Shown here: piece by piece, positions 42,799 through 52,046 of the stretch
Layout: each line of letters starts with the position of its first letter
Numbering within the stretch: the stretch's first letter is position 1
Origin: Verrucomicrobiota bacterium
GTDB lineage: Bacteria; Verrucomicrobiota; Verrucomicrobiia; Limisphaerales; JACPZS01
Assembly: GCA_016195385.1 (NCBI GenBank)
Contig: JACPZS010000206.1
Location: forward strand, 1-64,000
Direction of reading: 5' to 3'
Length of the DNA: 64,000 nt
The notes under the pieces: model-generated
What the model was told of the DNA's origin: nothing
What the model saw: the letters and a program-made list of their open reading frames with translations, nothing else
The model's database searches: none
Translations under genes and position numbers: made by a program

Positions 42799-43317
42799 AT
42801 GACCGCCAGCGCCGCCTTTGAGTCGATTTCCGGCAGCGGCGACGATTTTCAGCAAGTCGTCGCGCTGTGCGAATCACTCCATGACTACTGCCTCATCGGC
42901 GGCCTCGCCATCAATTGCTACGTCGAGCCGGTTTACACGATGGACGCGGACTTCGCGCTCGCGGCGGCGCATCTCACACCGGTAAAGCAACGGCTCGCCG
43001 CGCTCGGCTTTAAAGTCGAAGACCATCCGCATTCGCTCAACGCGCTTCGTCCGGGCAGCCAACTCAGCATCCAGTTTACCAAGGACGTGCGGTACGAAGG
43101 GTTTCCCGCCCGCTCTGAAATCCGCGAAACACTTGGCCTACACCTGCGCGTTGCATCGCTGCCCGATCTTGTTCAGGCCAAAATCTGGGCGTGGTCCGAT
43201 CCGCAACGTCGTCTCTCCAAACGCAAGAAGGATGAACTCGACCTCATTCGCGTAGCTGAAAAATATCCGCAGTTCATCCCGCAATTGCCAGTGGTTATAC
43301 GCAGCCAAATGAGTTAG
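42799..43317 (+). CDS. nucleotidyltransferase-like protein
   Basis: DYCLIGGLAINCYVEPVYTMDADFALAAAHL resembles AbiEii/minimal NTase GG...D.D motif. Confidence 0.6.
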   Translation: MTASAAFESISGSGDDFQQVVALCESLHDYCLIGGLAINCYVEPVYTMDADFALAAAHLTPVKQRLAALGFKVEDHPHSLNALRPGSQLSIQFTKDVRYEGFPARSEIRETLGLHLRVASLPDLVQAKIWAWSDPQRRLSKRKKDELDLIRVAEKYPQFIPQLPVVIRSQMS

Positions 43318-43337
43318 CTCATTGCTTGACTTCAGGA

Positions 43338-44150
43338 ATGAACACTTACCTTTTGACCTGGAACCCGAACCGTTGGTGGTGGGACAATTTAGCCAAGGAA
43401 GCCAATGAGACAGCCTCGGGCAAAATCATCAAATCACGATGGAGTTGCGGCGTCACAAAACAGATTAAGATTGGAGACAGAGGATTTCTCATGCGGCTTG
43501 GAACTGAACCGCGTGGAATCATCGCTTCCGGGTGGGCAACATCGGAGCCGTATTACGACAAACACTGGGACGAACAAAAAGCAGCCGGAGGACAAAAGTG
43601 TTTATATGTGGAATGCGAGTGGGAACGTTTACTCGACCCGGACGTAGATTTGCCACTTCCTCTTGCCGTGTTACAAAATGGGAAGTTGAGTGAATTTCAT
43701 TGGACACCGCAAGGTTCCGGGATTCGCATACACGCAGACATTGCTGAGGAACTAGAGCGAGTCTGGGCTGTTCACGTCGGTGCTTCGAGTCTCAGCACGG
43801 TTGATTTTGATGATGAGATTTCTAGCTTTGAGGGCGAAGAGCGTATCACGCTGATTCGTCATCGACGGCGCGAACACAAACTTCGCGCGGCAAAGCTGAA
43901 AGAAGCTTTGGAGGCAGGGAATGGTCGCCTGAAATGTGAAGTTCCGAGATGCGGTTTCGATTTTTATGAAGTTTACGGCGAACTAGGATTTGAGTTTGCC
44001 CAAATTCATCACTTACAGCCTCTCGGCGATAGAAGCACTCCGTCAGTAACCAAGTTGAACGACTTGGCAATTGTTTGCGCGAATTGCCACGCGATGATTC
44101 ACCGAAGTGGAGCTTGCCGTCCGCTTGAAGGATTGATTCCACAGAAATGA
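43338..44150 (+). CDS. HNH endonuclease with possible EVE/PUA-like N-terminal domain
   Basis: N-terminal YLLTWNPNRWWWDN...IGDRGFLMRLGTEPRGIIASGWATSEPYYD; C-terminal CEVPRCGFDFYEVYGELGFEFAQIHHLQPL...LNDLAIVCANCHAMIHR. Confidence 0.82.
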   Translation: MNTYLLTWNPNRWWWDNLAKEANETASGKIIKSRWSCGVTKQIKIGDRGFLMRLGTEPRGIIASGWATSEPYYDKHWDEQKAAGGQKCLYVECEWERLLDPDVDLPLPLAVLQNGKLSEFHWTPQGSGIRIHADIAEELERVWAVHVGASSLSTVDFDDEISSFEGEERITLIRHRRREHKLRAAKLKEALEAGNGRLKCEVPRCGFDFYEVYGELGFEFAQIHHLQPLGDRSTPSVTKLNDLAIVCANCHAMIHRSGACRPLEGLIPQK

Positions 44151-44162
44151 GATCGGTTATGG

Positions 44163-44184
44163 TTCTCTGCGTCTCTGCGTTTAA
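44163..44184. repeat. short 'CTCTGCGTCTCTGCG' intergenic repeat
   Basis: TTCTCTGCGTCTCTGCGTTTAA, shares CTCTGCGTTTAA/TCTCTGCGTTAA words with 15252-15281. Confidence 0.55.
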
Positions 44185-44190
44185 CGGAAC

Positions 44191-45522
44191 ATGAAACATA
44201 AGTCGAAAAACATTCCTGGTTCCATCGTCGCGCCGCAGGGCTTTCTGGCCAGCGGCGTGTTCTGTGACATCAAACGCCTCGGTACTGGCAAAGGCTCGAA
44301 CAAAGGCAAGAAGCGCGACCTTGCGCTCATCGTCTCAGAAGTGCCGGCCACGGTCGCCGGACTTTTCACGACCAATCAGATTAGCGCCGCCCCCGTGAAG
44401 CTTTGCGTGGAGCGCGTCAAGCGTGGCCGTGCGCAAGCACTCGTCGTCAACTCCGGCAACGCCAACGCTTGCACCGGCAGGCAAGGCATGAAGGACGCGC
44501 TCGAAATGACCGCACTCGTCGCGCGCGAACTACACATGCCGGTTGGCCAAGTCCTCGTCGGCAGCACGGGCCGCATCGGTGTGAACCTGCCGATGGCGAA
44601 TGTGAAGGCGGGCATTCTCGAAGCCGCGCAACTTCTCGGTAACGACACGGCGCACGCCGCCGAAGCCGCTGAAGCGATCATGACGAGCGACACAAAACCA
44701 AAGCAGATCGCGGTCGAGTTCAAGCTTGGCGGCAAAGCCGTTCGCATTGGCGGCATCTGCAAAGGCGCGGGGATGATTCAGCCCGGCATGAGTCCGACCA
44801 GCGCGCGCCCCGCCGCAACTCCCTCCGGCCTTCACGCGACGATGCTCTGCTTCATCACCACCGACGCGGCCATCGAAGCGAAGCCGCTGCAAACCGCGCT
44901 CACCGAAGCCGTGGCAAATAGTTTCAACCGTATTACGGTCGATGGCGATATGAGCACCAACGACACCGTGCTCGTGCTGGCAAACGGACTCGCTGCCAAT
45001 CCGAAACTCAAAACTCAAAATTCAGAATTCAAAATGTTTCAGTCCGCCTTGAGCCACGTCTGCCCCGAACTTGCCAAAATGATAGTTCGTGATGGCGAAG
45101 GCGTTTCGCGCTTTGTCACAGTGCGCGTGAAGGGCGCAAAAAGTTTTGTTGACGCCGATGCCGCCGCGCGCGCGGTGGCGAACAGCCCCCTCGTGAAAAC
45201 AAGCTGGCACGGCGGCGATCCGAATTGGGGCCGCATCATTGACGCGATTGGTTACAGCGCGGCGCGCGTCGTCGAGGAACGAGTGGACATCGGCTACAGC
45301 TCGCCCGGCGCGAAGAAAATTCTTTATTCGCTCAAGCGCGGTCAGCCGACGAAGGCGACGTTCAAGAAATTGTGCGCCGCCGTCGCGGCGAAGGAATTTA
45401 ATCTGCACATCAATTTGAATCTCGGCAAATCCAGCGCGCTGATGTACGCTGCCGATCTCACCGAGGAATATGTCGATTTCAACAAAGGCGACGTGAGCGA
45501 TCCGGCGGCACTGGGCGGATGA
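44191..45522 (+). CDS. argJ: bifunctional glutamate N-acetyltransferase / amino-acid acetyltransferase
   Basis: GFLASGVFCDIK; ALVVNSGNANACTGRQG; ICKGAGMI...ATMLCFITTDA; GGDPNWGRIIDAIGYS. Confidence 0.95.
   Translation: MKHKSKNIPGSIVAPQGFLASGVFCDIKRLGTGKGSNKGKKRDLALIVSEVPATVAGLFTTNQISAAPVKLCVERVKRGRAQALVVNSGNANACTGRQGMKDALEMTALVARELHMPVGQVLVGSTGRIGVNLPMANVKAGILEAAQLLGNDTAHAAEAAEAIMTSDTKPKQIAVEFKLGGKAVRIGGICKGAGMIQPGMSPTSARPAATPSGLHATMLCFITTDAAIEAKPLQTALTEAVANSFNRITVDGDMSTNDTVLVLANGLAANPKLKTQNSEFKMFQSALSHVCPELAKMIVRDGEGVSRFVTVRVKGAKSFVDADAAARAVANSPLVKTSWHGGDPNWGRIIDAIGYSAARVVEERVDIGYSSPGAKKILYSLKRGQPTKATFKKLCAAVAAKEFNLHINLNLGKSSALMYAADLTEEYVDFNKGDVSDPAALGG
45001..45037. repeat. AT-rich AACTCAAAATTC-type repeat inside argJ
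   Basis: CCGAAACTCAAAACTCAAAATTCAGAATTCAAAATG encodes NPKLKTQNSEFKM; inverted relative at 45536-45570. Confidence 0.65.
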
Positions 45523-45535
45523 ATTGAGTTTCGGA

Positions 45536-45570
45536 ATTTTGAATGTTGGGTTTTGAGTTTTGAATTGTCG
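45536..45570. repeat. AT-rich repeat downstream of argJ, inverted relative of 45001-45037
   Basis: ATTTTGAATGTTGGGTTTTGAGTTTTGAATTGTCGG versus reverse complement of the argJ-internal copy ATTTTGAATTCTGAATTTTGAGTTTTGAGTTTCGG. Confidence 0.65.
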
Positions 45571-45690
45571 GCCAGCGAATTCGCGTCGCAAAAAAGGCGA
45601 TGTTTTTGCTTCCGGCTTCGGTTGGCAAATAGAGAAAAAACGTTGCGGCCAATCACGCAGGCGGCAGACTGACGTCCAAGAACCCAGTTT

Positions 45691-47952: not shown

Positions 47953-48368
47953 GGTATTTGCTCGACACCGGAGTCTGGCTCCGGGCGGTCAATGAACTGC
48001 TGACAATTCCACCGGAAACGTTGCGATTGCTACAGACTTCGGGCGAATTGTTCGGTCTGCCCGCGATCAGTTTATGGGAGATAGGGAAAAAAGTGCAGGC
48101 CGGAAAACTGCCGCTGCCAAAGGAACTCGCTGCGTGGTTCAAGGACGCCCTGGCTCCCAACCTCACCGTGCTTCCGCTCACGCTGGAAGTGGTCAGCGAC
48201 GCCATGCGATTGCCGGAATTTCCGGTTCGCGATCCCGCCGATGAACTCATCGTCGCCACCGCGCGCGTCCACCGGCTTACGCTGCTGACTACCGACACAA
48301 AGCTGAAGGGCTACCGCCACGCGCGCATTCAATACTTCACGCCGATCTCGGAGGATCGGAAAAAATGA
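47949..48368 (+). CDS. PIN-domain toxin
   Basis: GTG start overlapping antitoxin; RYLLDTGVWLRAV...LPAISLWEIGKKVQAGKL...FPVRDPADELIVATARVHRLTLLTTDTKL. Confidence 0.88.
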   Translation: MRYLLDTGVWLRAVNELLTIPPETLRLLQTSGELFGLPAISLWEIGKKVQAGKLPLPKELAAWFKDALAPNLTVLPLTLEVVSDAMRLPEFPVRDPADELIVATARVHRLTLLTTDTKLKGYRHARIQYFTPISEDRKK

Positions 48369-48514
48369 GACTCGCCGCACCGAGGGGGTTCGACCTCCAC
48401 CTCCACATCAACTTCAGCAAAGCCAGCGCCATCATGTATGCCGCCAATTTGACTGAGGCCAACGTGGATTACAACAAGGACGACGTGACGGGAGTGATGA
48501 CCTTTGGGGGATAA
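48365..48514 (+). pseudogene. remnant of a divergent argJ C-terminus
   Basis: ORF MRLAAPRGFDLHLHINFSKASAIMYAANLTEANVDYNKDDVTGVMTFGG* aligns with ArgJ C-terminus FNLHINLNLGKSSALMYAADLTEEYVDFNKGDVSDPAALGG (about 22/41 identical by eye). Confidence 0.8.
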
Positions 48515-49432: not shown

Positions 49433-50314
49433 ATGCAAGACCTCATCTCCAAAGCCGCGACGCTGCTCGAAGCGTTGCCGTACATCCAGAAATTCAGCGG
49501 CGAGACGTTCGTCGTGAAATATGGCGGTTCGTTCATGGACTCGCCCGATCCCGCGGTGCGCAACGGCGTCGCGCGCGACATTGTTTTTTTGGAAGCCGTC
49601 GAAATTAATCCGGTCGTCGTCCATGGCGGCGGCAAGGCGATCACGCGCGCGATGGAAGCGGCCGGCTTGAAGGCAAGTTTCATTCAAGGCCAGCGGGTGA
49701 CGGATGAAGCGACGGTGTGCGTAGTGGATCAAGTTCTGTCACGCGAGATTAACCCGGAGGTGGTCAAAGCCATCGAGGATCTGGGCGGCAAGGCGCGCGG
49801 ATTTTCCGGTGCGGACATTTTCAAGTGCCGCCGGCTATTGCTCGACGACAAGGAAAAGCCCGGCGTGAAAATGGACATCGGCTTCGTCGGCGAAGTCGTG
49901 GAAGTGAACACGGAACCGTTGCGGCAGTGCATCTGGCACGGCATTACGCCGGTCATCAGTCCCGTGGCGCTCGGTGAGGATGGGAAAATTTACAACTGCA
50001 ACGCGGACGTCGCCGCCGCGCAGGTCGCCATCGCGCTCAAGGCGAAGCGGTTGGTTTTCATGAGCGACGTGCCCGGCCTGATGCGCGACCCGCAAGACCC
50101 GGCCACGCTCATCGCGCATTTGCAAACGAGCGAAGTGCCCGCGCTCAAAGCGGCGGGGATCGTGGACAAGGGAATGATTCCGAAAGTGGACAGCGCCGTG
50201 GCCGCGATTCGGTCGGGCGTGGACAAAGTTTCGTTTGTCGATGGCCGCGAGCCGCACGCGGTGCTGCTGGAGATTTTTACCGATGCCGGCGTGGGCACCG
50301 AAGTTGTACTCTGA
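49433..50314 (+). CDS. argB: acetylglutamate kinase
   Basis: TFVVKYGGSFMD; PVVVHGGGKAITRAMEAAGL; LVFMSDVPGLMRDP; KVDSAVAAIRSGV. Confidence 0.95.
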   Translation: MQDLISKAATLLEALPYIQKFSGETFVVKYGGSFMDSPDPAVRNGVARDIVFLEAVEINPVVVHGGGKAITRAMEAAGLKASFIQGQRVTDEATVCVVDQVLSREINPEVVKAIEDLGGKARGFSGADIFKCRRLLLDDKEKPGVKMDIGFVGEVVEVNTEPLRQCIWHGITPVISPVALGEDGKIYNCNADVAAAQVAIALKAKRLVFMSDVPGLMRDPQDPATLIAHLQTSEVPALKAAGIVDKGMIPKVDSAVAAIRSGVDKVSFVDGREPHAVLLEIFTDAGVGTEVVL

Positions 50315-50345
50315 TTTCGGATTGGCGATTGCGGATTGCGGATTG
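50314..50345. repeat. left 32-bp inverted repeat
   Basis: ATTTCGGATTGGCGATTGCGGATTGCGGATTG; contains tandem GATTGCG units; first base is the A of the argB TGA. Confidence 0.95.
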
Positions 50346-50370
50346 ATGCACATCCGATCACCCTTTGGGA

Positions 50371-50754
50371 ATGAACGCAGACGAGTTCAAGAGACGGACG
50401 AAAGCTTATGCCATTCGTGTAGTGCGTCTTGCTGAATCATTGCCCAAGTCCGGTTCTGCTGCCGTAATAGGACGCCAGTTGCTTAGGGCCGGGACTTCGG
50501 TCGGCGCAAATTATCGCTCTGTTTGTCGGGCCAAATCGCGGGCCGACTTTGTTGCCAAGCTGACTATCGTCGAGGAAGAATGCGACGAGTCGCTTTACTG
50601 GATGGAGTTGTTAATCGAGACAAATGTTGTCAAAGCCGATCTGGTTGCTGATCTGATGAAAGAAGGCAACGAACTCTTGGCCATGACCGTGGCTTCGGCC
50701 CGCAGTGCCCGCTTTCGAAACAATCCGCAATCCGCAATCGCCAATCCGAAATGA
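50371..50754 (+). CDS. four-helix-bundle protein (S23/IVP-like, TIGR02436-type)
   Basis: FKRRTKAYAIRVVRLAESLPKSGSAAVIGRQLLRAGTSVGANYRSVCRAKSRADFVAKLTIVEEECDESLYWMELLIE; C-terminal NNPQSAIANPK is encoded by the right IR. Confidence 0.88.
   Translation: MNADEFKRRTKAYAIRVVRLAESLPKSGSAAVIGRQLLRAGTSVGANYRSVCRAKSRADFVAKLTIVEEECDESLYWMELLIETNVVKADLVADLMKEGNELLAMTVASARSARFRNNPQSAIANPK
50721..50752. repeat. right 32-bp inverted repeat
   Basis: Exact reverse complement of 50314-50345; last two bases are the AT of the argD ATG. Confidence 0.95.
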
Positions 50755-52046
50755 AAGAAATTATTCCGCCGCCGCCGGCCATCGTCCGCAATCAGCAGGT
50801 GGCAATCCAGCAACTCTTCCAGCAGCACGTTGTGCCGAGCTATGGGCGCTTCGAGCTCGTCTTGAGCCACGGCCAGGGCAGCTACGTTTGGGATGTGAAC
50901 GGCAAACGTTACCTCGATCTCGGTGGTGGCATCGCGGTCTGCTCGCTCGGCCACGCGAACGAAGAAATCGCCGAGACGCTTTCGCGGCAGGCGCGCCAGT
51001 TGATGCATGTCTCGAATCTTTACTACCACGAACCACAGGGCCGCCTCGCGCAACAACTCACGCGGCTCATCGCGCCGGGCAAAGTTTTTTTCTGCAACTC
51101 CGGCGCGGAAGCGAACGAAGGACTTTACAAACTCGCGCGCAAGTTCGGCCACGACGAGGGACGCTTTGAAATTCTGACGGCGGAAAATTCTTTCCACGGA
51201 CGTACGCTCGCGGGCATCGCGGCCACCGGTCAGGACAAGGTCAAGAAAGGGTTTGCGCCAATGGTAGCAGGCTTCCGCCACATTCCGTTCAACAATCTGC
51301 AAGCGGCGCGCGACGCCATTTCGCCCGCGACCGTCGCGATTTTGATCGAAGGCATCCAGGGTGAAGCGGGCATCACGCCGGCGACGCCGGAATATCTGCT
51401 CGGCCTGCGTGCATTGTGCGATGAAAAGAAAATGCTGCTGCTCATCGATGGTGTGCAATGCGGGCATTTTCGGACGGGACGTTTCCAAAGTTTTCAACGC
51501 ATCCTCGAAGGCGTGGCGGGCGGTGACAAATTTCTGCCCGACGGCATTTCGATGGCGAAGTCGCTCGGCGACGGATTTCCCATCGGTGCGTTTTGGGCGT
51601 GCGAGCCGCACGGCGATTTGCTGGGCGCGGGCACGCATGGCACGACGTTCGGCGGCACGCCGCTCGGCTGCGCCGTGGCGTTGAAAATTCTCGAAGTAAT
51701 CGAACGCGATCGGCTCGCCGACAACGCGCGGGCAACTGGAGATTTTTTGAGAAACCATCTTGATCGGCTCGCAACGACTTATCCTGGCGTCATCAAAAAT
51801 GCGCGCGGCGTCGGTTTCATGCTCGGACTCGAATTGGTCGAGAAAGAAAAAATTCCGGCATTCGCTGCGATCGACAAAGCGGCGTCGATCCAGTTCGTCA
51901 ATCGCCTGCACGACGCAGGGGTGATGACCATTCCGTCCGCAAATCAACGCGTGCGCCTGCTCCCGCCGCTGAATTTGACACGCGTTCAGGCGGAGGAGGG
52001 CGTGGCTTTGATCGAGTCTGTGGCTGTGAAGCTCGCCCAAGCTTGA
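50751..52046 (+). CDS. argD: acetylornithine aminotransferase
   Basis: ATG overlaps the stop of the 4HB gene; GKRYLDLGGGIAVCSLGHANEE; FFCNSGAEANEGLYKLARKFG; LLLIDGVQCG; GTHGTTFGGTPLGCAVAL. Confidence 0.94.
   Translation: MKEIIPPPPAIVRNQQVAIQQLFQQHVVPSYGRFELVLSHGQGSYVWDVNGKRYLDLGGGIAVCSLGHANEEIAETLSRQARQLMHVSNLYYHEPQGRLAQQLTRLIAPGKVFFCNSGAEANEGLYKLARKFGHDEGRFEILTAENSFHGRTLAGIAATGQDKVKKGFAPMVAGFRHIPFNNLQAARDAISPATVAILIEGIQGEAGITPATPEYLLGLRALCDEKKMLLLIDGVQCGHFRTGRFQSFQRILEGVAGGDKFLPDGISMAKSLGDGFPIGAFWACEPHGDLLGAGTHGTTFGGTPLGCAVALKILEVIERDRLADNARATGDFLRNHLDRLATTYPGVIKNARGVGFMLGLELVEKEKIPAFAAIDKAASIQFVNRLHDAGVMTIPSANQRVRLLPPLNLTRVQAEEGVALIESVAVKLAQA

Follow-up and report, generated by a model that had tools for sequence, protein, structure and literature searches.

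The argJ gene of a Limisphaerales bacterium carries, within its reading frame, a short tandem array of a seven-base word. We consider it probable that this segment represents a dispersed heptamer array, present here as a solo copy in frame, that such arrays spread within genomes, and that the ArgJ loop in which it lies has been overwritten repeatedly. The window, as we call the 64-kb stretch of DNA analysed here, belongs to a MAG of this order (G000), which has relatives only at the level of the order.

The heptamer array in the ArgJ loop

The argJ gene (44191..45522, + strand) encodes a glutamate N-acetyltransferase / amino-acid acetyltransferase of 443 aa, as judged from its open reading frame, a Pfam match to PF01960 (E=1.2e-132) and the PDB relatives 1vz6, 1vra and 3it4. 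The array occupies positions 45001..45036 on the same strand (CCGAAACTCAAAACTCAAAATTCAGAATTCAAAATG) and is composed of the units AAAACTC, AAAATTC and AGAATTC, which TRF reports as 4.4 copies of period 7. It is translated as PKLKTQNSEFKM, directly after ..LAAN. Lag-7 identity reaches 19/21, and none of 500 random synonymous recodings of the same peptide was equally periodic. A heptamer scan detected two arrays of the AAAATTC type in the window, one in argJ and one just past its stop codon, and zero matches in ten shuffles of the same 64 kb. The argJ array is a tandem rather than a palindrome, since an inverted-repeat search returned only the distant partner at 45524-45571, and it is AT-rich without runs of G. 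The first-pass annotation had recognised a repeat encoding PKLKTQNSEFKM inside argJ and had taken it for a repeat turned coding sequence; both statements hold, the segment being in frame and a member of a dispersed array family.

How widely the loop is affected became apparent from 95 distinct ArgJ proteins, obtained by merging 53 genomes of the order, mostly MAGs, with 80 named records. The loop was defined as the DNA bounded by the LAxN Asn and the FQxAL Phe, and scored as a heptamer array at a lag-7 identity of at least 15/21. By this measure, 31 loops carry heptamer arrays, 12 carry palindromic dispersed repeats and 52 are repeat-free. Two palindromes account for the second class: P1 (GTAGCAGCCGACGT..ACGTCGGCTGCTAC) in eight loops and P2 (GGCGAGCGTCCTCGCGAGCC) in four, the latter also being found elsewhere in G000. 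The 31 arrays are built from 20 distinct units, including AAAGTTC (L062), AGAAGTC (L066), GGAGTGC (L074, L089), AGAATTC (L070), GGAATTC (L111), ACGATTC (L107), AAAATTA (L099) and AAAACTC (L085 and the window genome). The GC content of nine listed arrays is 0.13-0.54, while that of the gene around them is 0.56-0.67. The ArgJ loops of L086, L104, L112, L114, L115, L046 and L136 contain a REP-like hairpin (GTAGCAGCCGACGTGAGGAGGCTC..GAGCCTCCTCACGTCGGCTGCTAC), the in-frame translation of which is VAADVRRL..ASSRRLL.

Loop length is uniform among the arrays, with 13 residues in 28 of the 31, and array-free loops most often have this length as well, whereas loops with a palindrome extend to 15-33 residues. 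The loop of the window ArgJ aligns without gaps to that of Bacillus halodurans ArgJ (1vra; LAENETLTPEHPDWANF against LAANPKLKTQNSEFKMF). Given this equal length, the array has replaced loop residues at the protein level and added nothing, and a gain of residues like that caused by the Rickettsia palindromic elements (RPEs; see below) was not seen at the ArgJ array. It is therefore doubtful whether the array should be called an insertion. An AlphaFold model of ArgJ, of moderate quality (mean pLDDT 68.8) and used for secondary structure only, predicts a strand (259-264), the loop and a helix (280-301). Loops with and without arrays share a hydrophobic residue at positions 3 and 10 and Phe at position 13, and positions 3 and 10 lie seven residues apart, which equals one cycle of the peptide encoded by a heptamer array. 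The phase of the array in the loop is thus plausibly fixed by selection.

These shared features of array-free and array-bearing loops, namely length, anchor positions and the retention of the anchors by the arrays, would also be expected if selection on the protein alone favoured an amphipathic NxxLxxxxSxEFKxF loop and the periodicity of the DNA were a mere consequence. We regard this as highly improbable. When each loop peptide was recoded at random with the codon usage of its own gene, the observed periodicity was rarely matched (p<0.05 for 31/31 array loops and p<0.01 for 29/31), and no other period behaves comparably: at lags of 5, 6, 8, 9, 10 and 11, 0-2 of the 95 genes are periodic, against 31 at lag 7. 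Protein-level selection is therefore refuted as the sole cause and stays as a filter that fixes length and register. The same test answers whether the segment is strain-specific, as the first-pass annotation had proposed to ask of ArgJ from relatives: as DNA, the segment is specific to its lineage, given that its heptamer periodicity exceeds what the amino acids require. Conservation of the amino acids with unrelated codons, which that annotation would have counted against its reading, was found in its first half: the amino-acid pattern is conserved across ArgJ, but the codons are repeat-derived.

A quick ArgJ tree, calculated with the loop excluded, requires a minimum of 39 changes of the exact loop type and of 31 changes of the loop class (none, heptamer, P1 or P2). 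Sisters separated by short branches can differ, as do L074 (GGAGTGC) and L086 (palindrome), or L093 and L104. The ArgJ loop is hence a recurrent landing site for short, selfish-looking repeats, whose words and types differ by lineage. Many of the source records are MAGs and some are misnamed, which could raise the concern of an assembly or binning artefact. We give this hardly any credence, given that dozens of independent assemblies keep the frame open in essential genes and that the unit differs from genome to genome. As to the names, several MAG records labelled Akkermansia, Klebsiella or Proteobacteria (L063, L065, L066, L067, L093 and others) contain an argJ of the Limisphaerales type, and these labels are evidently wrong.

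The surroundings of the array hold further features. A CTCTGCGTCTCTGCGTT repeat lies at 44165-44183, immediately 5' of the argJ start, and translations suggest a similar word beside heptamer arrays in leaders at G000:C82 and C179. Residues 201-215 of ArgJ (~44791-44835) form an additional SPTSARPAATPSGLH segment right before the catalytic ATML, which is missing from 1vz6 and found in Limisphaerales ArgJ. Between argC and argJ (42799-44150) there are AbiEii-like and HNH-nuclease-like genes, both with Pfam scores slightly below the curated cut-off. Finally, the C-terminus of ArgJ recurs in diverged form (48365-48514; 46 aa, 50% identity) 2.8 kb 3' of argJ, beyond an esterase-like gene, a MutH/MvaI-type nuclease gene and a Phd/PIN toxin-antitoxin pair. 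This copy looks like a trace that DNA integration or recombination has left at the 3' end of argJ; a remnant of similar kind is present at G025:C7:101267-101356.

Arrays at other loci

The genome-wide repeat search that the first-pass annotation had called for uncovered a dispersed family. According to pattern searches and a 202-kb sample, G000 contains more than ten additional arrays of the AAAATTC type, most of them in frame and a few in leaders or near contig ends. In-frame hosts are UvrA, IleS, SMC, ProA, MurC, IspG, MetG, an RND pump and a PQQ-type dehydrogenase; the names of these hosts were read from translations, and seven are backed by conservation in relatives. In the 202-kb sample, which includes the window, heptamers are in slight excess over other periods, so G000 is not saturated with arrays.

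Relatives were searched with a chimeric query of seven G000 host segments, and the homologous loops were then compared. In some species, other heptamers or REP-like inserts occupy the corresponding loops of IleS, IspG, MetG, MurC, ProA and UvrA, and in IspG, as in ArgJ, the array replaces loop residues at constant length. A REP-like hairpin different from that of the ArgJ loops (..RRDACPT) was noted in UvrA of G009 and MurC of G002. In G009, CCGCACT is found in IleS as well as IspG, and MetG has a variant of it; G002 has AAAATTC in IleS and AGAATTC in ArgJ. The unit present in argJ tends to be abundant in its genome: AGAATTC gives 23 matches in G002 versus at most five in any of 57 others. Likewise, AAAGTTC is resident in G003 and GGAGTGC in G023 and G026, all of which carry these words in argJ. 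The link between the argJ unit and the units resident in the genome is not universal, given that AAAACTC is confined to argJ in G021 and has zero strict matches in G038.

The recurrence of one word at unrelated loci bears on an alternative history, in which a single in-frame array entered ArgJ early in the Limisphaerales and has since been homogenised locally by slippage and unequal exchange, the different units reflecting drift. Length, register and coding orientation are indeed common to 28 of the 31 arrays, and some array-free loops, such as those of L065 and L068, resemble decayed arrays. Constant length and register could reflect one ancestral array with later concerted change of its units, and this counts against repeated overwriting. 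Nevertheless, we judge a single ancestral array to be unlikely. The same unit at several unrelated loci of a genome (AAAATTC in G000, CCGCACT in IleS and IspG of G009, the 23 AGAATTC matches in G002) is beyond the reach of local homogenisation, and palindromes take the place of arrays in sister species.

The arrays resemble several known repeat systems in part. The palindromic elements of Rickettsia and Wolbachia are selfish repeats that lie within the reading frames of protein-coding genes (Ogata et al., 2000, cited in PMC2996958). As far as that account extends, the likeness lies in one dispersed family being in frame in unrelated housekeeping genes, at sites where their globular products are variable and unstructured; the AAAATTC-type arrays of ArgJ, UvrA, IleS, SMC, ProA, MurC, IspG and MetG show the same distribution. 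By the same account, RPEs are palindromic and add codons, whereas the Limisphaerales arrays are non-palindromic tandem heptamers whose word varies by species. TAACTGA direct repeats are known from Beggiatoaceae, Cyanobacteria and Bacteroidetes and, in the available passages of that study, are likewise genome-dispersed heptamer arrays that sometimes fall within ORFs in a stop-free orientation (PMC4679880). These passages describe one word, mostly intergenic or at the periphery or ends of proteins, which is read as translational control, and they give no link to four-helix-bundle genes (PMC4679880). The GGGAATC and GGGGA(C/T)T repeats of Xanthomonas and Nostoc are also overrepresented short heptamer arrays, typically of about four units, without a tie to known mobile elements; however, they are G-rich, form quadruplexes and have been studied mainly in intergenic regions, in contrast to the AT-rich argJ array without G runs (PMC4692102).

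PF05635 genes between inverted heptamer arms

Five kb from the argJ array, between argB and argD, the window contains a gene for a four-helix-bundle (4HB) protein of PF05635, the 23S rRNA intervening-sequence protein family (50371..50754, + strand; E=3.1e-16, above the curated cut-off). It is bracketed by two heptamer arrays in inverted orientation, a left arm that begins at the argB stop codon (50309..50345, - strand; GATTGCG) and a right arm that ends at the argD start codon (50721..50757, + strand; CAATCCG). The arms are 37 nt long and 95% complementary, and the RNA of the whole unit (50309-50757) is predicted to fold far better than chance (z=-6.68). The last residues of the protein, NNPQSAIANPK, are encoded by the right arm, and its stop codon shares an ATGA with the start codon of argD. 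The same unit is present at the same junction in L067, and L087 and L088, in which argB and argD overlap directly, represent empty sites. The junction shows TGA..TGA, but as a sign of target duplication this is confounded by the start and stop codons.

This arrangement is widespread. Inverted arms flank all five PF05635 copies of G000 above cut-off; the word is a different one in every copy, and these words differ from the in-gene AAAATTC unit. Counting inverted pairs that score at least 15, arms flank 23 of 34 PF05635 genes in the order, compared to 0/195 mismatched left/right pairs and 0/80 control windows; roughly two thirds of the arms are clearly heptameric. In the same phylum outside the order, 16/30 genes have arms (controls, 5/300), as do 8 of 10 plasmid-borne PF05635 genes of Cyanobacteria, Chloroflexota, Bacteroidota and Spirochaetota, those below the threshold being the Bacteroidota and the Spirochaetota gene. 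The parallel that the first-pass annotation had drawn between the argJ repeat and the repeat flanking the 4HB gene is thereby confirmed, the 37-nt arms being real and of the same repeat class. It had also stated that KLKTQNSEFK-like tails are common on 4HB proteins, which is partly right: nine of 32 4HB frames run into a heptamer array. Very long arms, with ~17 units of GGAGGTC (125 nt), were observed at L268 (G013:C31). On plasmids of Gloeocapsa and Chlorohelix (L318, L320), a heptamer-armed 4HB gene has a DUF1156 gene on one side and a Swt1/HEPN gene on the other, a defence-like operon common to two phyla.

The closest known counterpart is the intervening sequence (IVS) in the 23S rRNA of Coxiella burnetii, a unit of ~430 nt in which a PF05635 (S23p) ORF lies between terminal inverted repeats that form a 28-bp stem, with two to three tandem heptamers (GACAGAT) beside the ORF (PMC4990558). 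The window unit combines the same elements, a PF05635 ORF, long-stem terminal inverted repeats and tandem heptamers, so that the IVS shows the same anatomy inside rRNA (PMC4990558). In contrast, the 4HB units sit between protein genes, the window unit at the argB/argD junction and not in a helix of 23S rRNA, and it is heptamer arrays that make up their arms, the word differing per copy.

These units provide the background for the second AAAATTC-type array of the window, which is inverted, non-coding and located directly past the argJ stop (45524..45571, - strand). The first-pass annotation had noticed this opposite-orientation partner at 45536-45570, slightly shorter than we find it, and had interpreted both arrays as the ends of one former element bounded by inverted repeats, that is, as terminal repeats of a mobile element whose ends were left behind, one of them now being coding. 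The arrays are inverted and ~490 bp apart, a span similar to that of the 4HB units; the array family makes inverted arms elsewhere; and the interval is predicted to fold more stably as RNA than shuffled sequences do (z=-4.06), so that its transcript could pair as a long hairpin. However, no cargo foreign to the host gene lies between the arrays, 45037-45523 being the conserved 3' half of argJ; an inverted array within 600 bp 3' of argJ is found at one of the 31 array-bearing loci, that of the window genome (score 19, next best 10), and is missing at the other 30; and the outer flanks resemble each other to chance level. The array loop is, moreover, as long as the array-free ArgJ loop. Because the interior is ordinary argJ, the partner occurs in 1/31 loci and the flanks are at chance, we reject a common origin of the two arrays as ends of one element and consider it very unlikely. 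The best inverted arms at argJ, 44989-45030 and 45534-45575 (42 nt, 81% complementary), reach into these flanks, and this extension was discarded as a signal beyond chance, since 39% of random segments score equally high. Nor does the orientation of the pair carry any inference, as 4HB arms occur in both orientations. The array at 45524-45571 would instead be a separate copy of the family to which the argJ array belongs.

Array movement and its meaning

The structure of the arrays, their dispersal, their in-frame position in several essential genes, the recurrent switching at the ArgJ loop and the association with 4HB arms across phyla are observed; how the arrays move, and what part selection plays, we infer. 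In the history that we favour, arrays of four to six tandem copies of a seven-base word would spread inside Limisphaerales genomes, each genome favouring its own words, and would persist in genes only where they are stop-free in the reading direction and fall into a surface loop. The strand-loop-helix region of ArgJ (residues 271-283) would be one such recurrent acceptor: different heptamers, or REP-like palindromes in other lineages, would have replaced its sequence many times, with purifying selection holding the frame, the length and the anchoring hydrophobic residues at positions 3, 10 and 13 of the loop. As a route, we prefer copying from array to array by template switching or gene conversion, because a standing period-7 array offers homology to any other and register and length would be preserved; fresh insertion with compensating loss is a possible alternative.

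The same class of array also makes the inverted arms of PF05635 units, and this association suggests a possible role for 4HB proteins in array movement. A stronger version, in which PF05635 proteins act on the heptamer arms of a mobile or copying system, units move as arm-4HB-arm, solo arrays are their traces or by-products and words are exchanged by templated copying in fixed register, we regard as tentative and rather unlikely. Most arrays are not near a 4HB gene, and the arm words of the five 4HB copies in G000 differ from its in-gene unit; both points also speak against the history favoured here, as do the exceptions in G021 and G038 and the predominance of MAGs among the genomes. Neither a transposase nor any other enzyme was found linked to the heptamer arrays.

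Heptamer arrays in ORFs (Beggiatoaceae; PMC4679880) and selfish in-frame repeats (Rickettsia; cited in PMC2996958) are already known from the accounts available. As far as the searchable literature shows, the turnover of many words at one loop and the general association of 4HB genes with heptamer arms are new; a search of the openly licensed literature returned no paper linking heptamer arms with 4HB genes as a general rule.

Essential genes are normally cleared of repeats. In the order studied, a single loop of an enzyme has been rewritten by unrelated repeats, with at least 31 changes of class and the frame kept, which provides a record of junk-like DNA turning into protein. At the same time, the occurrence of 4HB genes between inverted heptamer arrays in Verrucomicrobiota, Cyanobacteria and Chloroflexota provides a general genomic signature, outside rRNA, for a common and unexplained protein family. 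It also allows a direct test of a long-standing question, namely whether S23/IVS proteins mobilise the sequence that encodes them.
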